This document shows, one piece after another, positions 48,237 through 58,415 of a stretch of 59,252 nt of DNA. The position numbers and the translations under genes were made by a program. Positions within the stretch are counted from its first letter, which is position 1. Every line of letters begins with the position of its first letter. The stretch lies in contig WTCE01000071.1 in assembly GCA_013138735.1 (NCBI GenBank), positions 1 through 59,252 on the forward strand. The letters run 5' to 3'. This stretch comes from Crocinitomix sp. Lineage in GTDB: Bacteria; Bacteroidota; Bacteroidia; Flavobacteriales_D; Crocinitomicaceae. The notes beneath the pieces are model-generated. The model saw nothing but the letters and a program-made list of their open reading frames with translations, made no database searches and was not told where the DNA came from.

Positions 48237-48368
48237 ATTTCATAGATTGGCTAGGCATACGTATTAATACGTAATCTTTAGGTATAAAGTGCGATAAAGG
48301 ATCTGTCTTCAAAATTTTTATCTATTTTGGATCAATCTTTACCTAACGGAGATCTTAACGTACTAACT

Positions 48369-51300
48369 ATGAGACAATTATTCCCAGCATTATTATTGGC
48401 GCTATTACTTATTATTTCAACAGCTGGTTTCAGCCAAGCTTCCGCGCCATTTTCTGTAAACTATATTACCGTTAATGGATCCGGATCTGTTTGGGCTTTT
48501 GGCGAAGGTGGATCTCACGGCAAAGGATTATACTATCAGTTTAATGGTTGGAATTTCATAGCATATAATATTGCAGAAGGAGTCAAAGCCGCGCATAGCA
48601 CTTATGGTGAAATTCACATAATTAATAATAAAGGAGAGGTAAAAGAATGGAACAGCAATAATAATCGTTGGTTTACCTATCCCGGAATTACAGGCGCAAA
48701 GGATATTTTTGTGAGCAACAAGAATGGTAATAATAAATATGTATTAGGTTCAGTTGGCGGAAAATACGGTTTGTGGATGGTGCCGAACATATCTAGCAAT
48801 GCTGCTAGTTGGCAACCTGCTTGGGTTGATGGTTATGGCACTTCGTTAATCAAAGCAACTAATGACATTAGTGGAAACATTTACGGGGTAACCAGTGCAG
48901 GGCGTTTAATTCTGAAGAATTCAGCGCAACAAATTATAGTCATGCCAACTGACAATCGATTTATCGTTGATATCTTAATTGGAGAAGATAAAAATTTGTA
49001 CATGATGGAGCGTGGCGGTAAAATATTTAAAAAAAATGGTAACGGAACTTGGACTGATTGCCGTTTAAGCGCTACCTCATGGGGGGTTGGAAGTAATGGA
49101 GGTGTCATTGGCAACGTAAACGGCGAAGTCCAATCCATGAAAAACGGGTCATGGTCTAAAATATCAGTAGAAAACCCTAATAAATTAGATGGTAATGGTA
49201 ATACACCTTTGACATCCGCTTTGGCTTCTGGAAGCAGTTCTAAGGCACAAGCGGCTATTACCAGCGGTACAAATGTGAACCTTGCAAATCGTGCAGGTGA
49301 CTATCCTATTCATTTAGCCGTAAAAAATCAAGATGTAAGTGTTGTTAACATGATGATGCTCAACAAGGCTGATCCTAATGTAAAAGACAAATCAGGACAT
49401 ACGGCATTGTATTATGCGGTGCAATATAATCGAGTTGATGTAGCTAAGGCGTTGTTTAGCAATGGAAAAGTAGATCCCAACACAGAAAAAAATATCGCGT
49501 TTATTGCAGCTGAAAACAGAAATATCGATATGGTTGTGTTTTTAGGGGCTCAAAAAGTTGACTTAAGCCCTGGACTAAAACCTGCAATTGGATATAGAGA
49601 CGCTAACCTGGTCACGGCTTTATTAAATAATGGAGCAACAATAACAGGGAATGGTAATTTTGCACATGCCGTTGACTTAAAAGCTTATGACATAGCAGAG
49701 ATTTTGCTGAAAAACGGGACAGATAAAAAAGTGGCTGTGGAATATGCCGTAGGAAAAGGAAATAAAGAACTAATCACTTTGTGCTTAAACAATGGTTCAC
49801 CAGCTGACCCAGTTATTGACTATGGGTTTAAGCAAAATGATGTGAATTTAATAACGGATTTGATTGTAACACATAGCATAAATCCAACCACAATTATGGA
49901 TAAAGCAGTGCCCGGTAAATCAGGAGCTGCTGGAACAGTAAATTTAAATATGGCCAAAGTCGCTTTGCAAAATGGTGCGTCGGCTGATCCTTATTTCGCT
50001 TATTCCATTTCGAGTAATAATATGCAATTAGCGGATGTTTTATTAGTGAATGGCGGAAGTCCTAAAAAATTATTAGAAGAATCGGTAAATGCAAACAATA
50101 CGCGCTATGCTTCTCATGCTTTTGATAATGGAGCACAGGCCAATAATAACGGAGGGTTATTTTTAAAATCTGTTGAAAGTAGTAATGTTGAAATGACCCG
50201 TTTATTTGTTGATCGTGGCGGAAATACTGGCGATAGTCGCTTAATAAAGTCTTCGGTAACGAACGACAATATTGAAATTACTAGAATGCTGCTTGATAAT
50301 GGTGCTTCTGCTGGTGATCGGAGTTTAATTCAAACATCCGTTAAGCAATCCAATATAGAAATGACAAGCATGCTAATTACAAGAGGAGCGCCAACGGATG
50401 ATCCAACAGTAATTAAAACTGCAGTTGACCAATCTAATACCGAAATGACACGCCTTTTAATTACAAACGGGGCGCCAACAACTGGTCCAAAATTAATTCA
50501 AAGTTCAGTTGATCAATCTAACGTTGAAATAACAACATTACTGCTTGAAAATGGTGCTTCAGCTGCTGATCCAAATTTGATTCAATCAGCCGTTTCAAAG
50601 TCAAACACTGGAATGACACAATTATTGATTAATAATGGTGCACCTGTTAACAGTCCAAAATTGATGCAAACTGCTGTAGATAATTCAAACATTGAAATTA
50701 CACGAATGTTAATAGCGAGTGGCGCTTCAGCTGCCAATCCTAACTTGATCAAAGCGGCCGTTGGAAATAAAAACCTTGAAATTTCAAAACTATTATTAGA
50801 AAATGGCGCACCTGCCGGAGAAAAGGCTTTAATTAAAACTGCAGTAAATAATAAAAGCAAAGGAATTGTAAAGGAACTATTGAACTACGGAGCTGATCCA
50901 GATGCAGGAATGCAAGCCGCAGTTGATAAAAGTTATGCAGACATTGCGCTCATGTTATTAGAGGCCGGAGCAGATGCAAAGAACCCAAAACTAATTAAAT
51001 CCGCATCAAGCAATGGTAGCTTGGCAATAGTAACGGCCTTAGTTGAAAGAGGAGCTGCTCCTGATGATGGCGCCTTAGAATCAATCAATAGTGGCCATGA
51101 AAATGTCTTCAATTATTTAATGGCTAAAGGAGCAGACGCTACGAGTATGGTTTATTTGGAAGCTGCGGTTCGCAAAAATAATTTCAATATGTTCAAGCAT
51201 ATGATTGACGCAGGAGCGCCTGTAACTTACACGGCAGCTAACGGCGAAAACTTTTTGCACATTGCTATCAACAATGAAAATGCACCAATGATTAAGATTT

Positions 51301-51521
51301 TGGTAGAAAAAGGAACGGCATTAGAGCAAAAGGATAGTGATGGATTAACCCCATTATTATTAGTTGTAACGAGCAATAGAAAAGGTTTAGAGATTTGTAC
51401 AATGCTAGTTGAGGGTGGAGCGAACGTGAATGCTGTCAATAAAAAAGGAAAAACTGTTTTAAAGGTGGCTAAAGGAAAAAAAGTGAAGGATTATTTAAAA
51501 GCAAATGGCGCCGTTAAATAG
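48369..51521 (+). CDS. Secreted tectonin-propeller and ankyrin-repeat protein
   Basis: 1050 residues from ATG 48369, which gives signal peptide MRQLFPALLLALLLIISTAGFSQ; an upstream in-frame ATG at 48327 gives no sensible leader. Residues about 25-265 are tectonin-like propeller repeats (GSGSVWAFGEGG, GEIHIINNKGEVKEWNSNNNRW, IGEDKNLYMMERGGKIFKK, GGVIGNVNGEVQSMKNGSWSKIS). From about 270 the rest is ankyrin-like. The first and last units are canonical (GDYPIHLAVKNQD, NGENFLHIAINNENAP), but 50182-50937 encodes nine 28-residue units (NIEITRMLLDNGAS form). It lacks a C-terminal T9SS signal, so it is probably periplasmic. Function unknown. Confidence 0.85.
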   Translation: MRQLFPALLLALLLIISTAGFSQASAPFSVNYITVNGSGSVWAFGEGGSHGKGLYYQFNGWNFIAYNIAEGVKAAHSTYGEIHIINNKGEVKEWNSNNNRWFTYPGITGAKDIFVSNKNGNNKYVLGSVGGKYGLWMVPNISSNAASWQPAWVDGYGTSLIKATNDISGNIYGVTSAGRLILKNSAQQIIVMPTDNRFIVDILIGEDKNLYMMERGGKIFKKNGNGTWTDCRLSATSWGVGSNGGVIGNVNGEVQSMKNGSWSKISVENPNKLDGNGNTPLTSALASGSSSKAQAAITSGTNVNLANRAGDYPIHLAVKNQDVSVVNMMMLNKADPNVKDKSGHTALYYAVQYNRVDVAKALFSNGKVDPNTEKNIAFIAAENRNIDMVVFLGAQKVDLSPGLKPAIGYRDANLVTALLNNGATITGNGNFAHAVDLKAYDIAEILLKNGTDKKVAVEYAVGKGNKELITLCLNNGSPADPVIDYGFKQNDVNLITDLIVTHSINPTTIMDKAVPGKSGAAGTVNLNMAKVALQNGASADPYFAYSISSNNMQLADVLLVNGGSPKKLLEESVNANNTRYASHAFDNGAQANNNGGLFLKSVESSNVEMTRLFVDRGGNTGDSRLIKSSVTNDNIEITRMLLDNGASAGDRSLIQTSVKQSNIEMTSMLITRGAPTDDPTVIKTAVDQSNTEMTRLLITNGAPTTGPKLIQSSVDQSNVEITTLLLENGASAADPNLIQSAVSKSNTGMTQLLINNGAPVNSPKLMQTAVDNSNIEITRMLIASGASAANPNLIKAAVGNKNLEISKLLLENGAPAGEKALIKTAVNNKSKGIVKELLNYGADPDAGMQAAVDKSYADIALMLLEAGADAKNPKLIKSASSNGSLAIVTALVERGAAPDDGALESINSGHENVFNYLMAKGADATSMVYLEAAVRKNNFNMFKHMIDAGAPVTYTAANGENFLHIAINNENAPMIKILVEKGTALEQKDSDGLTPLLLVVTSNRKGLEICTMLVEGGANVNAVNKKGKTVLKVAKGKKVKDYLKANGAVK

Positions 51522-51850: not shown

Positions 51851-52255
51851 TTAATTCATTGCTTCAGTTTTAAACTGCGTCAACCAAAAGATGCAGGATT
51901 CTTTATTGGTGAAAAATTTCGTAGGAATTTTAGGTTTAAAAAACTTGGTGTATAATGAGGCTCCAAATCTTTGAATTTGGTCATTGACCAGAATGCCTGT
52001 GGATGTTAAATGTACCATTGCTTCACCTGATGATAGGTATTTATTTGCGGCTCTTTCCATTTTAAGTGCCGAACCAAGTTCTACATAGAGAGGACGTGCT
52101 ACGCCATTAGAAATCGTTAATCTATCTTGTGTAATTACTTTAGCAATCTCTAGGGTCAGTACGTCAAAAGTTGGTTTGAAAATTTCGTATACAATTCCGT
52201 CTTCTATCCAATATTCGCAGTAGTCGTTTTGATAATATGATTCTTTTCTAGTCAT
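51851..52255 (-). CDS. Small STAS-like (DUF7793-type) protein
   Basis: 134 residues, cytoplasmic. YCEYWIEDGIVYEIFKPTFDVLTLEIAKVITQDRLTISNGVARPLYVELGSALKMERAANKYLSSGEAMVHLTSTGILVNDQIQRFGASLYTKFFKP matches the SpoIIAA/STAS-like family common in Bacteroidota. STAS proteins bind nucleotides or partner proteins. It is divergent from the AONS-GNAT fusion gene, sharing a 103-base control region. A regulatory link to that gene is inference. Confidence 0.75.
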   Translation of the reverse strand: MTRKESYYQNDYCEYWIEDGIVYEIFKPTFDVLTLEIAKVITQDRLTISNGVARPLYVELGSALKMERAANKYLSSGEAMVHLTSTGILVNDQIQRFGASLYTKFFKPKIPTKFFTNKESCIFWLTQFKTEAMN

Positions 52256-52358
52256 AATGAGTAAGGGGGTGGGGAAAGATACAAAGAATAAATTTAGTAT
52301 GAAACATTGGTGTAATTAGACTAATTTAGAGTTTGAACTCAAATATGACCACAGAATT

Positions 52359-54821
52359 ATGCACGGAAAAATCATCAACAATATTTACGATATAATTACA
52401 AAAGGCACCGAAAACGGCATTGGACAATTATACACAGAAGATCAATTTTATGACAGCACGACGATTACGTTTGGCAATAAGAAGCATGTTAATTTCGGTT
52501 CTTATAGTTATTTAAGTTTAGAGCATGACATGCGCTTGAAAGACGCTGCAATCGACGCGATTCAACGTTTTGGAATCCAATATCCAAGTTCAAGAACTTA
52601 TGTGTCAACCACTTTATACAATGAATTGGAATGTTTAATGGAGCAGATTTTTGAAAACCCAATTGTTTTGGCGACTACAACTACCTTGGCGCATATGGCA
52701 GCAATGCCTATTTTGGTTGAAGAGGGAGATGTAATTATTATGGATCAACAAGTTCACTCGAGCGTACAATTTATGATTAATCATATTAAGCAACATGGAG
52801 TACCATTTTTCGTGGTAAGACATAATAATATGGAACAACTTGAGAAAAAAATTCAAGAATTGTCTAAAAGTTATAAACGTGTTTGGTATATGTGTGACGG
52901 TGTATATTCAATGTACGGTGACACCGCGCCAATTCAGGATCTTAATGCATTGCTAGATAAATATTCCAAATTTAATTTATACGTAGATGATGCCCATGGC
53001 ATGTCTTGGGCTGGTGAAAATGGGGCTGGATATGTCTTTAGTAAATGTAAGTTGCACGACCGGATGGTGGTTGTTACTTCTTTAAATAAAGCATTCGCAG
53101 CTGGCGGATCAGTCATTGTGCTTTCGGATAGTAAAATGGCGAATAAGATTAAAACTTGCGGAGGACCATTGATTTTCGCTGGACAACATCAAATGTCCTC
53201 TCTTGGCGCGGCATTAGCATGTGCGAAAATTCATCTTTCAGAAGAGATTACTGAGATGCAAAATGAGCTCTTGGAAAAAATACATTATTGTCATGAGCTA
53301 TTGTTGGCAGAAGGATTACCTGTGATTTCTGAAGGTGAGACGCCGATCTTTTTTGTAGGAGTAGGCTTACCAAAAGTAGGGTATAACTTAGTTAAAAAGT
53401 TAATGGATCGTGGTCATTATTTGAATCTTGCAGTTTTTCCAGCTGTTGCAGAAACTTGCACGGGTGTGCGATTTACATTAACTAAATCGCACAGTTTTGA
53501 GCAAATTGAAAAAATGGTAGAAGACTTGAGTGTTTCTTTTAAGCTTGCTTTAATCGAAGAGGATCGATCCATGGGTGATATTTACAAAGCCTTTAGGAAG
53601 GTGAAAACATTTAAGATAGAATCAAAAGCAGAAGTTGTCTTGAATGACACGGAGCAGTTTCGTATACAACATGAAACCTCAATTGCAAATATATCGGAAC
53701 AGCTATGGAATTCCAAAATTGGTAAACGTTCTCTTTTCGATTGGAACGCCATGTCTGATTTGGAAGCCGTTTTCAAGAATAATGTCGCCCACAATAATTG
53801 GGATTTTCATTATTTTATGTTATTTGATAAGCAGGACAACCTTGTTTTTGCAACGTATATGACCGTGTGTCTCACAAAGGATGATGCCTTGGCAGCTTCG
53901 TCGATATCTTTAGAAATTGAGCAAAGAAGAATTAAAGATAAGTACTATCTCTGTTCAAAAACATTGATGATGGGTTGTCCAATTTCTACAGGGAAGCATT
54001 ACTATATGTCTAGCACAGTAGAGTGTAAATCGCTGTTGAATTTTTTCTTCAAATATTTAGATGTCTTGCAGGAAAAATTGGACACAACAGTATTGAATTT
54101 AAGAGATTTTGCATCAGATAATGAGGTGATTTCCAATTATTTTTTAGATCAAGGATTTATCAAGGTAGAGATGCCAACAAATTATGTGTTAACAAATGAA
54201 GAGTTTGTTCCAACGGTGGACGACTACCTCTCTGAATTAAAGAGTAGTCAAAGGCGTTTTGTTAAATTGCGTGCCTTGAAAAAAGAGTGTAATTTTGATT
54301 TAGTAGAAATAAGTCAATTCAATCGTCATACCCTAAATCAATTGAATGTTTTATATAAAAATGTCCAAAAGAGAAGCTTCGAGTTAAATCTGTTTGAATT
54401 CCCATCTAAAATTATTGAACAGGCTGTGAGTAGCCCTAATTGGGATGTAATAGGATTAAGAATAAAAGGCAAGTCAAAAGATTTAATTGCTATGGCGGTA
54501 AGTTATGTGAATGATAATAATTATCATTTTTTAATTGCCGGATTAGATTATGATTATGTCAAAGACTATGATGTTTATACCCAACTTTTATGGCAAATTG
54601 TTAAACGCGCTAAAGTTAAAAGATGTATCAGAATTAATTTCGGAATGACTACGGGGCAAAACAAACGTAAATTTGGTGCTACAGAAATTAAAACTTCGTC
54701 ATACGTTCAGTTAAAAGACAATTTTAACGCAACTGTTATTATGCAAATGACTTCAGAAAATGGTTTTACTACTGAACTTAAAAAGCGGAGAGCATATGTT
54801 TCCTCGGTAAAAGAATATTGA
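52359..54821 (+). CDS. Fusion of alpha-oxoamine synthase and GNAT/FemAB-like acyltransferase
   Basis: 820 residues. Residues 1-395 are a PLP enzyme of the alpha-oxoamine synthase group (BioF, KBL, serine palmitoyltransferase, CqsA): DQQVHSSV (H133), LYVDDAHG (D210, H213), SLNKAFAAGG (PLP-lysine K244). These enzymes condense an amino acid with an acyl thioester, releasing CO2. The usual GSGGSR loop is YPSSRT, so it is a divergent subfamily. Residues about 400-820 hold a linker and a GNAT/FemAB-like acyltransferase region (YLLSELKSSQRRFVKL-type core, here YLSELKSSQRRFVKLRALKK; HFLIAGLDYDYVKDYDVYTQLLWQIVKRA; INFGMTTGQNKRKFGA). Likely product an N-acylated amino ketone, such as a capnine-type or sphingoid-like lipid, or a signal. 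Ends overlapping the kinase gene by 44 bases. Confidence 0.8.
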   Translation: MHGKIINNIYDIITKGTENGIGQLYTEDQFYDSTTITFGNKKHVNFGSYSYLSLEHDMRLKDAAIDAIQRFGIQYPSSRTYVSTTLYNELECLMEQIFENPIVLATTTTLAHMAAMPILVEEGDVIIMDQQVHSSVQFMINHIKQHGVPFFVVRHNNMEQLEKKIQELSKSYKRVWYMCDGVYSMYGDTAPIQDLNALLDKYSKFNLYVDDAHGMSWAGENGAGYVFSKCKLHDRMVVVTSLNKAFAAGGSVIVLSDSKMANKIKTCGGPLIFAGQHQMSSLGAALACAKIHLSEEITEMQNELLEKIHYCHELLLAEGLPVISEGETPIFFVGVGLPKVGYNLVKKLMDRGHYLNLAVFPAVAETCTGVRFTLTKSHSFEQIEKMVEDLSVSFKLALIEEDRSMGDIYKAFRKVKTFKIESKAEVVLNDTEQFRIQHETSIANISEQLWNSKIGKRSLFDWNAMSDLEAVFKNNVAHNNWDFHYFMLFDKQDNLVFATYMTVCLTKDDALAASSISLEIEQRRIKDKYYLCSKTLMMGCPISTGKHYYMSSTVECKSLLNFFFKYLDVLQEKLDTTVLNLRDFASDNEVISNYFLDQGFIKVEMPTNYVLTNEEFVPTVDDYLSELKSSQRRFVKLRALKKECNFDLVEISQFNRHTLNQLNVLYKNVQKRSFELNLFEFPSKIIEQAVSSPNWDVIGLRIKGKSKDLIAMAVSYVNDNNYHFLIAGLDYDYVKDYDVYTQLLWQIVKRAKVKRCIRINFGMTTGQNKRKFGATEIKTSSYVQLKDNFNATVIMQMTSENGFTTELKKRRAYVSSVKEY

Positions 54822-56274
54822 ATGTAGTTCCCTTTAAAGGAGTTGACTCAACATGAATATCTCCATTCAAATAAGCCAATTTTTGCTTTGTAAAATACAA
54901 GCCTAAACCAAAATTGTTGCTAGATTGGGATGTTGTAAAGCCTTTTTCGAAAATGGTTTCGAATAGGTTATTGTCTATTCCTATGCCGTTGTCAGTAACG
55001 TTAATTGAGATGAATTCATTCTTGTCTTCAATTTCAATAGATACAGTTGCATTATTTTTGTTTCGATCTTGAAAATAGATTGCATTCAATACCAAATTTT
55101 TTATTATCGAAAATAAAGTCGAATAGTTAGCCGAAAAAGGGATGACGGTTTTATTTGTAATCGTCAAATTAACTTGATCTAAATCTATCAAATATTGAAC
55201 CTCATCAATCAACTGCTTAACCATTAAATTGAAATCGATTACCTCTGAAAGATTTTTCAGTTGATTTTCATTGAGTAGTTCGGCGCCTAAGCTCTCTTTT
55301 AACTTGTGCAAGTTTTCAAGCATTATGCTTGTGCTTTGGGCGCAATTTTCATCCTGTGAAGTAGCTCTTAAATTCTTTAGGCCACCAATTACATTAGATA
55401 CAATGCTATAATTTTCATGCGCGTTGGCAATTGCATTGAAACTTGAATTATTAAAGTTTAGAATAAAAACAAATTCAGGAAGTTCATCTTCACTGTCACA
55501 AGCTAGATATGATAATTCAACTTTTTGCAGTCCGTATTTTTCTGTGTTTAATAGTAAGGGTTCTTTTAAGCAATTTTTATTTCCAAATGCCAAAATTTGT
55601 TCGGGATCTAGTTCAGGAATTAGTGTTTTCAAAGATTTTCCTTCAATTTCGAAATGTTCTGTTTCAAATAAAAGTTCTCCAGTATTATTAATTGAGCGAA
55701 TATTATAATTGCTATCCGTAACTACCATAGCGACATTCGACTCCGTTTCAAAATAGGCGTTTACAGACTTTTTTGAGAACGTCGCAAAACTCATAGATTC
55801 GGAAATCGATTCTAAAGCAAAGCCAAAATAGTTGAATAAGTTTTTACCTACGCCTTCTACAGAAAAATTAGGAAGCTTTTGAGAATAGTCAAGTCGCATA
55901 ATCGACTCGGCATAATCTCCTATTTGTTGCGAAATATCACCTTCCTCACTAAATATTTTAATATAAAATAACCCTTGGATTCTATCGAAAATTTCTTGTT
56001 CAGACTGAACAAGACTATTCTCCTTCTTTTTTGCTAATAGTCTATTGAAGGCATTTAAAATCCCTTCAGATTGTCGTTCAACAACCTGTTCTTTATCTAA
56101 TGTGGCAAGTTCAATCACCCCCTTTAAACCATTTTCAAAAATCGTCAGATTTCCATCTTGTTCGCGGCTTGCGATCGTTTCATAACAATCCCTCAAAATT
56201 TCTGCGAGCAAGGGGTCTCCTTCGCGGATATTAGCCGTTATATCATAGCTATCTGAATTGTTAGGATTTTTCAT
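54778..56274 (-). CDS. Soluble PAS sensor histidine kinase
   Basis: 498 residues, no membrane helix. The N-terminal 170 residues are helical and of unknown type (IREGDPLLAEILRDCYETIASREQDG). A PAS domain spans about 180-290 (NVAMVVTDSNYNIRSINNTGELLF). The dimerisation helix has AHENYSIVSNVIGGLKNL (His near 283), where most kinases have SHELRTPL; the R.P segment is missing. The HATPase has NLVLNAIYF (N box), VTDNGIGI, FGLGLYFTKQKLAYLNG and GTTFNILLP. It converges on the AONS-GNAT gene with a 44-base overlap. No response regulator is next to it. Confidence 0.82.
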   Translation of the reverse strand: MKNPNNSDSYDITANIREGDPLLAEILRDCYETIASREQDGNLTIFENGLKGVIELATLDKEQVVERQSEGILNAFNRLLAKKKENSLVQSEQEIFDRIQGLFYIKIFSEEGDISQQIGDYAESIMRLDYSQKLPNFSVEGVGKNLFNYFGFALESISESMSFATFSKKSVNAYFETESNVAMVVTDSNYNIRSINNTGELLFETEHFEIEGKSLKTLIPELDPEQILAFGNKNCLKEPLLLNTEKYGLQKVELSYLACDSEDELPEFVFILNFNNSSFNAIANAHENYSIVSNVIGGLKNLRATSQDENCAQSTSIMLENLHKLKESLGAELLNENQLKNLSEVIDFNLMVKQLIDEVQYLIDLDQVNLTITNKTVIPFSANYSTLFSIIKNLVLNAIYFQDRNKNNATVSIEIEDKNEFISINVTDNGIGIDNNLFETIFEKGFTTSQSSNNFGLGLYFTKQKLAYLNGDIHVESTPLKGTTFNILLPRKHMLSAF

Positions 56275-57062: not shown

Positions 57063-58415
57063 TTGAAATTGAAAAAATTAGGTCTTGTTTTTATAGTGAT
57101 TGGATTCTTGTTAGCAGTATTTGCAGCTTTCGGAATGGCCAATGGTTTTCTCGGCCAGGGGTCCCAAATTATCTACATAATAGTGGGGGCGCCACTTCTG
57201 TTCACAGGAATTTCAATGCAATTTATTCAGTCGCCGAAAGAGCAAAGAAAGAAGCCGGCAATTGTATTACTGGCTATTTCATTGGGGCTGATAGCGATAG
57301 GGGCGCTTTCGAAATATGTGTATAATTGGCATGGTTCTAATCTTGAGGTGATCGTTGGAGTTTTTATTTTTTGCTTTGGTTTTGCGCCCTTAATGACCAA
57401 GTTCAGATATGAAAAATGGTCGCAGTTTATCGGCTCTTCTCGTTTAGCCTTTTTATTATCAATAACAGATTTTATAATTGTCGTCATGATTTTTGTTGGG
57501 CTGCTCTTTAAAATGATGCATTGGCCTGCTGCTGAATTCATGATGCTAGTCGGAGTAAGTTTGTTGCCGATTACTATCATTGTTTGGAACAGAGTTTTGG
57601 GTCAGCAGTTGGTCTTTAGAAAAACAGCTGAGGAAAACTTGATAGAGGTACATCAAGAATTAAAAGAAAAGAATGATGAAATTTTGGACTCAATAGCTTA
57701 TGCGAAACGAATTCAAACAGCTATTCTACCGCCAGAAAAAATGGTAAAAGCATTATTACCCAATTCTTTTGTGCTGTATTTGCCCAAAGATGTTGTTGCG
57801 GGAGATTTTTATTGGATGCAAAAAAGTGACAATAAGGTGTTTTTTGCGGCAGCAGATTGCACGGGTCACGGAGTGCCTGGCGCAATGGTTTCTGTTATTT
57901 GCAATAATGCCTTAAATCGAGCAGTCAACGAATTTGATAGGCGAACACCAGCAACTATTCTAGATCAAGCAAGAGAGATTGTTATTCAGGAGTTTGATAA
58001 AAGCGAAGAAGACGTGAAAGACGGTATGGATTTGGCGCTCTGTTCTATTGTTGATATGAAATTAGAATTTGCAGGAGCTCATAATCCGCTATGGATCATT
58101 AGAAATAACGAAATCCTTGAATTCAAAGGAGATAAACAACCTGTCGGCAATTTTGAAATGGCGAAACCGTTCACCAATCAAGGGTATGATTTAGAGTCGG
58201 GCGATCTTATTTATATCTTTTCAGATGGTTATGTTGATCAATTTGGAGGAGTAAAAGGCAAAAAGTTTAAACCAAAACAGTTTAGAGAACTACTGCTAAA
58301 TATTCATCAAAAACCTCTAGACGAGCAGTCAAAAATTTTGGAAGAAACAATTATTGAGTGGCGTGGAGATATTGACCAGGTGGATGATATTTGCGTTATT
58401 GGGGTGAAGATATGA
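57063..58415 (+). CDS. Membrane SpoIIE-type (PP2C) serine phosphatase
   Basis: 450 residues from TTG 57063 or 448 from TTG 57069; no ATG precedes the first membrane helix, and an in-frame TGA ends at 57062, so a TTG start is needed. Six hydrophobic segments (about 5-30, 36-55, 67-85, 94-111, 125-148, 155-173), a coiled coil (about 180-205), then the phosphatase: VVAGDFYWM, ADCTGHGVPGAMVSVI, DGMDLALCSI, FAGAHNPLW, IYIFSDGYVDQFGG, with the Asp metal ligands present. The linker LDSIAYAKRIQTAILPP is typical of Bacteroidota members. It probably regulates partner switching by STAS-domain proteins; substrate unknown. Confidence 0.9.
   Translation: MKLKKLGLVFIVIGFLLAVFAAFGMANGFLGQGSQIIYIIVGAPLLFTGISMQFIQSPKEQRKKPAIVLLAISLGLIAIGALSKYVYNWHGSNLEVIVGVFIFCFGFAPLMTKFRYEKWSQFIGSSRLAFLLSITDFIIVVMIFVGLLFKMMHWPAAEFMMLVGVSLLPITIIVWNRVLGQQLVFRKTAEENLIEVHQELKEKNDEILDSIAYAKRIQTAILPPEKMVKALLPNSFVLYLPKDVVAGDFYWMQKSDNKVFFAAADCTGHGVPGAMVSVICNNALNRAVNEFDRRTPATILDQAREIVIQEFDKSEEDVKDGMDLALCSIVDMKLEFAGAHNPLWIIRNNEILEFKGDKQPVGNFEMAKPFTNQGYDLESGDLIYIFSDGYVDQFGGVKGKKFKPKQFRELLLNIHQKPLDEQSKILEETIIEWRGDIDQVDDICVIGVKI

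Follow-up and report, generated by a model that had tools for sequence, protein, structure and literature searches.

Positions 1 to 59,252 of contig WTCE01000071.1 from Crocinitomix sp. (assembly GCA_013138735.1), the 59,252-nucleotide stretch that we call the window in the following, encode a protein that joins an α-oxoamine synthase to an acyltransferase-like half. We find that this fusion is kept together across Bacteroidota with two other genes, one for a small DUF7793 protein with a predicted STAS fold and one for an apparently soluble sensor with a HAMP-like stretch and a PAS domain. Our preferred interpretation, to which we assign a probability of roughly 40%, is a synthase-sensor cassette, in which the fusion would make a product and the sensor would read that product or the state of its pathway. 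An earlier sequence-only reading of positions 52359-56274 had described the fusion beside a sensor kinase and a STAS-like gene and proposed that one protein condenses and then N-acylates, yielding a lipid or a signal for the kinase; its observation is confirmed by our analysis, and its interpretation is partly supported. The locus is laid out as follows:

51851..52255, reverse strand: DUF7793 gene, 134 amino acids (aa), predicted STAS/SpoIIAA fold, divergent from the fusion (PF25056, model)
52256..52358, no strand: 103-bp divergent intergenic region between the DUF7793 gene and the fusion, a shared promoter region as presumed from the coordinates
52359-54821, forward strand: fusion, 820 codons (from the list of open reading frames, ORFs)
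52359..53543, forward strand: α-oxoamine synthase half, residues 1-395 (PF00155, with PRK07505 as the nearest model)
53550..54818, forward strand: FemX-like tandem GNAT half, residues 398-820 (PF13480, AlphaFold, Foldseek)
54778..56274, reverse strand: convergent sensor with HATPase domain, 498 aa (PF02518; N-terminal HAMP-like and PAS part probable)

The association was established by counting neighbours with profile searches within 6 kb of the fusion; general response regulators and hybrid kinases are part of the REC count. The best-hit set comprises the best 80 of at least 505 confirmed homologous loci, two paralogs from the same genome and the window, amounting to 83 loci with 85 fusions, near-copies included. 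DUF7793 accompanies 75 of the 85 fusions, the sensor 71 and a REC-containing gene 50. When only the 55 fusions flanked by 4 kb or more on each side are considered, these counts are 49, 49 and 33. They are 61, 57 and 40 for the 68 that remain when fusions at least 85% identical are removed; 54 of the latter have both DUF7793 and the sensor. Relative to the fusion, the nearest DUF7793 gene is divergent and upstream in 68/85 cases and co-directional and downstream in 7/85, with none within 1 kb in 10/85. Measured with profiles built from these same loci, the 734 ORFs at most 4 kb away include 81 matches to DUF7793, 77 to the sensor and 64 to REC, while the 456 ORFs at a distance of 5-10 kb include 2, 1 and 4, respectively.

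As the best 80 loci are a biased sample, we also drew 149 genomes evenly from the class; this even sample includes the genome of the window and overlaps with the best-hit set. It holds 20 full-length fusions in 16 of the 149 genomes, three of them from the window's own genome. Of the 20, 19 are accompanied within 6 kb by DUF7793, 18 by the sensor (found with the long or the short profile at E ≤ 1e-4), 14 by a REC-containing gene and 17 by both DUF7793 and the sensor. The PF25056 match lies at most 0.7 kb from 19 of these fusions (matched by hand), the exception being G051; DUF7793 as such occurs in 77 of the 149 genomes. No sensor match was obtained for the window itself and for G102:C58, whose contig ends 317 bases past the fusion, and some of the matches are weak (e.g. 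G015 at 2e-5). The contrast between near and distant ORFs, together with the evenly drawn genomes, rules out chance linkage of the neighbours, and the neighbourhood survey that the sequence-only reading had called for thus finds both neighbours conserved. Across 66 triples, pairwise distances of the synthase half also correlate with those of DUF7793 (r 0.84), the sensor (r 0.72) and the GNAT half (r 0.87), values reached in none of 500 permutations.

The fusion itself is not a product of chance, as it is found at full length in those 16 class genomes and in two further copies in its own genome, a draft of 6.84 Mb and 97.5% completeness. These paralogs, on C71 and C135, share 42% and 35% identity with it, respectively. 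Among the matches listed, its nearest named contigs belong to uncultured Crocinitomix species, with 89% identity over residues 1-820. A further contig of the same genome, C178, contains a fragment (L015 1501-1719) in a 106-aa frame that matches fusion residues 722-794 and is probably a decayed fourth copy; it adjoins an opposite-strand ORF that, by eye, has a P-loop-like start.

Judging from its sequence, the synthase half is a member of the α-oxoamine synthase superfamily, with a fold type I pyridoxal phosphate (PLP) domain. PF00155 matches residues 42-388 with 86.3 bits (cut-off 19.7). The residues H133, D210 and H213 and the PLP lysine K244, which the earlier reading had named as landmarks, stand at their stated places and are invariant in 85/85 fusions, as is the carboxylate arginine R371; these catalytic residues align with those of the serine palmitoyltransferase (SPT) 3a2b. 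The closest profile is PRK07505 (NF005697), a family named only 'hypothetical protein', which the half matches with 278 bits, below the cut-off of 342; two standalone homologs score 266 and 275 bits.

These scores bear on the possibility that the protein is an ordinary relative of BioF, Kbl, SPT or CqsA with a chance neighbour. In favour of this possibility, the class I/II aminotransferase family has 20 matches in the genome. However, the synthase half stays below every equivalog cut-off in NCBIfam: it reaches 158 of 426 bits for BioF, 144 of 460 for glycine C-acetyltransferase, 166.7 of 640 for SPT, 106 of 339 for ALAS and 75.9 of 428 for the autoinducer-synthase model NF005526, so that on these family cut-offs we reject it as a relative of CqsA or SPT. 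Furthermore, apart from the fusion the genome has a Kbl above its cut-off as well as a BioF-like gene, which at 334 bits falls short of the cut-off of 426 and adjoins an ORF resembling BioB by eye. Together with neighbours conserved far above the local background and the refuted chance linkage, this makes an ordinary relative highly improbable.

The best-scoring solved relatives in a sequence search are 8XHA and its kin (137-139 bits), followed by SPT 3a2b (112 bits). 8XHA has been identified as Alb29 from albogrisin biosynthesis, which produces aminoketones from L-glutamate and acyl-CoAs (PMC11906848). The same paper reports that in a Thermus enzyme Val79 helps to determine amino-acid selectivity, and that Alb29 has a Leu at this position (PMC11906848). 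In a phmmer alignment with 8XHA, this position is equivalent to residue 77 of the fusion, the first Ser of the loop YPSSRT (residues 75-80), which the sequence-only reading had rightly taken for a divergent version of the glycine-rich loop. Among the 84 fusions with letters at residue 77, it is S in 27, L in 23, E in 16 and A in 9, followed by M (3), T (2), C (2) and Y (1). Its loop neighbours G72 and S78 are without variation, and Y81 is Y in 82 of the 84; the contrast is with its own loop, since about 16% of the positions in the synthase half are more variable still. Alb29 is likewise an α-oxoamine synthase, with Leu where the window fusion has Ser, but given its chain of 401 residues it has no fused GNAT half. 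In a quick tree of synthase halves, the window groups with L023, L024, L025 and L056.

Standalone PRK07505-type relatives occur in Bacteroidota and on plasmids, without a GNAT half in those looked at. A plasmid search returned 173 records, none of which covers 80% of the fusion, and 20 listed records match the synthase half. Two standalone relatives on plasmids (L174 and L176, Agrobacterium fabrum C58 and Mesorhizobium) have genes for response regulators and acetolactate synthase in their vicinity, and the Mesorhizobium plasmid has an acyl-homoserine-lactone synthase gene about 4 kb away.

The C-terminal half, which the earlier reading had taken for an acyltransferase fold from about residue 400 to 820, is in its model a tandem GNAT of FemX type, and the structure prediction bears that reading out. 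The AlphaFold model, built with 65 sequences, has a mean predicted local distance difference test (pLDDT) score of 90.6, and its top Foldseek matches are to FemX (E 7.7e-13), followed by the aminoacyl-tRNA-dependent Sbb17, VipF, MprF and N-myristoyltransferase. PF13480 identifies the second GNAT domain at residues 656-763 (29.2 bits, cut-off 22) and is found in 54 of the 65 relatives at E ≤ 0.01. FemAB_like (PF04339) matches 26 of the 65 at the same threshold, while the window protein, at 16.3 bits, is below its gathering score of 27. A profile search of this half against the sequences of solved structures gave no match at E ≤ 0.1. Within the 85 fusions, 26 of its columns are at least 97% conserved. 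As donor, acyl-CoA, acyl-acyl carrier protein (ACP) and aminoacyl-tRNA all fit the predicted fold, which cannot tell them apart.

This fold leaves room for the two halves to act out of series, with the FemX-like half serving another acceptor, as in aminoacyl-tRNA-dependent transfer or transfer to an amine on a protein or peptide; the fusion would then do no more than couple their expression. The match to FemX and Sbb17 speaks for this alternative, as does the occurrence of the synthase half alone, without a fusion, in 14 of the 149 class genomes; the GNAT-half profile detected no split partner beside these lone synthases in the 14 stretches fetched. Against it stand the strict conservation of both halves together and the correlation of their distances noted above. 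In addition, 9 of the 14 lone-synthase genomes encode elsewhere a GNAT protein of some 400 aa that has weak similarity to the C-terminal half, versus 2 of 10 comparison genomes, a weak indication of a shared pathway, as the ten genomes without a strong synthase match were hand-picked and too few (G051, which has the fusion, served as a positive control). We consider independent halves improbable.

The STAS-like gene described earlier is indeed divergent from the fusion. Its 134-aa product matches PF25056 with 87.7 bits (cut-off 26) and is predicted to adopt a STAS/SpoIIAA fold: the model has a pLDDT of 90.1 and resembles 2q3l (E 1.3e-5), 4xs5 (E 2.9e-3) and SpoIIAA, with only two matches at E ≤ 0.001. 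At residue 68, the column that we take to be that of the candidate phospho-serine of the STAS motif, 68 of 73 sequences have K or R, and columns nearby are Ser in at most 35 of 73. A literature search on the name DUF7793 found no paper. A SpoIIE-type phosphatase, whose N-terminal part looks hydrophobic by eye, is encoded close to the STAS-fold gene, at 57063-58415 of the window. We considered it as a partner-switch component for the STAS-fold protein and rejected it, as its cluster is present in only 4 of the 83 loci (the window, L021, L022 and, with a different placement, L042).

The third member of the cassette, the sensor, shares its N-terminal HAMP-like stretch and PAS domain among loci, while the remainder varies. 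Only 2 of 72 sensor-profile matches in cassette loci exceed a Kyte-Doolittle mean of 1.6, and the window sensor, with a top 19-residue mean of 1.05, has no transmembrane stretch; by this hydropathy scan, made without a topology predictor, the sensor appears to be soluble and not membrane-bound. The outputs differ by lineage. In the C71 paralog locus (L016), the sensor combines HisKA_3 with HATPase and adjoins a REC-GerE (LuxR-type) regulator; L049 and L091 have hybrid kinases; and the sensors of the Flavobacteriaceae loci L044 and L070 carry an HTH_AraC output and no kinase. Thus, the input half stays with the synthase while the output half swaps between NarL-type kinase with regulator, hybrid kinase and AraC. 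At the C135 paralog, a 305-aa protein matches the sensor profile (E 1e-8), and Pfam finds no domain in it. This is one of 22 short sensors (<360 aa) and has no AraC domain; Pfam confirmed AraC in the two short sensors that were scanned. The synthase loop type L77/K79 goes with 20 of the 22 short sensors, 3 of 9 hybrids and none of 40 plain kinases.

For the window sensor, the earlier claim of a converging PAS kinase without response regulator stands in part. The sensor ORF (54778-56274, reverse strand) converges on the fusion with an overlap of 44 bases, and its product carries a HATPase_c domain (PF02518), the only one that Pfam reports at E ≤ 0.001. Its HAMP-like and PAS part depends on a multiple alignment and on a weak match to the cassette sensor family in a profile-profile comparison (E 2.8e-5 at a probability of 74). 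The same convergent downstream placement is found in L021, L022, L024 and L076. H286 aligns with the H-box histidine, and the two nearest relatives have Tyr. With no response regulator gene next to it and the H-box histidine lost from these relatives, the output of the window sensor may be degenerate. The term 'orphan' is true of the window only: as a general statement, a true orphan kinase is rejected, because many relatives and the C71 paralog carry a LuxR-type response regulator. Likewise, the comparison with cqsS as an orphan sensor kinase has to be corrected, as the partner appears soluble and its output varies by lineage, including AraC without a kinase.

Several observations weigh against the synthase-sensor cassette. 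The window sensor is its weakest case, being missed by the sensor profile at 1e-4 and lying on the opposite side of the fusion. Within 6 kb, DUF7793 is missing at 10 of the 85 fusions and a recognizable sensor at 14, some of which are explained by contig ends. The sensor count of 18/20 in the even sample depends on the longer, PAS-including profile, whose weak E-values may catch unrelated PAS kinases; used alone, the short HAMP-like profile finds a match (E ≤ 1e-6, within 3.4 kb) for no more than 11 of these 20. Common descent confounds the distance correlations, which are not corrected for the species tree, and the L77/K79 pattern, which tracks clades and may reflect descent alone. The donor of the GNAT half could be an aminoacyl-tRNA, as in FemX. 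Lastly, DUF7793 adjoins a HAMP-like sensor also where the enzyme is absent.

The latter was seen with the short HAMP-like profile, which has 31 matches at E ≤ 1e-6 in the 149 genomes. Ten of them have E < 1e-20, and nine of these sit no farther than 3.4 kb from a fusion (matched by hand), the exception being G102:C4. The 21 weaker ones fall into 18 places, of which two are beside fusions, 13 were fetched and three (G037:C9, G030:C213 and G013:C119) were left out. The 14 fetched stretches, i.e. these 13 and G102:C4, were mostly chosen because DUF7793 seemed near; none contains the fusion. In 11 of these hand-picked stretches, DUF7793 adjoins a HAMP-like sensor (L169 is cut by a contig end); in L166 it lies beside a broken one, and L170 and L171 have the sensor without DUF7793 beside it. 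DUF7793 and the sensor are thus a module in itself, with the fusion attached to one subtype. The sensor module can therefore take a different input, and its role towards the enzyme may be one of control alone. In L162, L163, L165 and L172, DUF7793 genes without the enzyme form arrays or share clusters with several receiver-domain proteins, which hints at larger signalling assemblies.

These stretches lend weight to a serious rival, regulated synthesis of a membrane lipid or metabolite without product sensing. Here, the sensor and DUF7793 would turn on the fusion in response to some internal state, be it of redox, membrane or energy, and the N-acylated α-aminoketone lipid would be structural and not the ligand of the sensor. 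A module that exists without the enzyme has other inputs, as this explanation demands; moreover, AraC-type regulators commonly control the gene from which they diverge, and both sphingolipids and sulfonolipids begin with α-oxoamine synthases. The order of steps proposed for Caulobacter, where the second acyl chain would go on before reduction, is in line with it as well (PMC11087976). On the other hand, among representatives of the commonest clusters, inspected mostly by eye, no widely shared one other than DUF7793, sensor and regulator resembled a reductase, ACP, head-group or lipid-transport gene, and no conserved metabolic neighbour was found by eye and with two Pfam checks on the commonest clusters only. 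The presence of the fusion in only 16 of 149 class genomes is patchy for a structural lipid, and the variable residue 77 also speaks against one. Taken together, we hold this rival to be only slightly less probable than the synthase-sensor cassette.

If the synthase-sensor cassette is nonetheless correct, the N-terminal half would, as in known families, condense an L-amino acid with an acyl thioester under release of CO2 to an α-aminoketone. The FemX-like half would, from its fold, then move an acyl (or aminoacyl) group, probably to the new amine, and the product would be small and probably lipophilic, an N-acylated α-aminoketone. The PAS sensor may bind this product, or read the state of the pathway, inside the cell, with DUF7793 as its putative adaptor, and would switch other genes as well as that of the synthase; this output is probably worn down in the window. 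The idea can be carried further, to a widespread and so far undescribed intracellular or cell-to-cell signalling system of Bacteroidota with a one-protein synthase of N-acylated α-aminoketones, residue 77 setting the amino acid, a soluble HAMP-PAS receptor dedicated to the signal and working with a STAS-fold adaptor, and lineage-specific outputs. In this full form, we regard it as unlikely.

Known systems offer partial parallels. Like the cassette, the α-hydroxyketone signalling systems CqsA/CqsS, LqsA/LqsS/LqsR and JqsA/S/R pair a PLP synthase of the same superfamily with a sensor kinase, joined in lqs and jqs by a response regulator (PMC3376566 and PMC3566124). Their sensor is trans-membrane, whereas the window partner appears soluble. 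Unlike their synthases, that of the cassette scores far below the autoinducer-synthase model and carries a fused acyltransferase; its output may be AraC, and its most constant partner is the STAS-fold protein. Systems of the LuxI/LuxR type also place a synthase beside a soluble sensor, which has its own DNA-binding domain, as in the Flavobacteriaceae cassettes; we take their protein families to be unrelated to those of the cassette. We therefore read the cassette as one that would work like CqsA/CqsS or LuxI/LuxR, yet belongs to neither. SxtA is another natural multidomain protein with an α-oxoamine synthase and a GNAT-type domain, in a different domain order and with extra domains. Its synthase activity is mentioned in PMC11906848. 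SPT and the bacterial ceramide synthase (Spt and bCerS) would perform the same two reactions, condensation and then N-acylation, but are encoded by separate genes (PMC11087976), and the fusion scores below the SPT models. Judged by titles and the beginnings of abstracts, we recognized no description of the fusion or the cassette in the open-access literature.

Some further features of these loci deserve mention. A small conserved protein of about 80 aa is found in 22 loci (L016 8317-8571 and 21 others), mostly directly downstream of the fusion, with no member in the window. In 16 loci (L044, L063, L067, L070, L074, L077, L084, L085, L087-L090, L094, L097, L099 and L100), the same four-gene set lies 3' of the fusion, comprising RteC (PF09357 in L044) and, by eye, a small helix-turn-helix (HTH) protein, another HTH-like protein and an ATPase-like protein. 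It looks like a module of a conjugative element, and such elements may carry the cassette. L075, a metagenome-assembled genome labelled as the gammaproteobacterial Saccharospirillaceae, has a complete co-directional array of fusion, DUF7793, sensor and regulator, which, taking the label as given, suggests transfer of the whole cassette. In the window, a 1064-aa protein with a long ankyrin-repeat array and a TTG start in the ORF list is encoded at 48327-51521.

To our knowledge, pairs of a synthase and a receptor for a diffusible signal are poorly known in Bacteroidota. With the cassette, a synthase and a candidate receptor can now be named that are conserved across many genera. In Flavobacteriaceae, it is reduced to one synthase and one PAS-AraC protein, which makes the question testable with two genes and a reporter. 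Even if the sensor only controls the enzyme, the cassette would still point to a new N-acyl aminoketone lipid and give DUF7793 a concrete setting. The recurrence of this two-part enzyme with its sensor and helper protein in many Bacteroidota genomes hints at a route, so far undescribed, by which a small lipid-like molecule is made and responded to.

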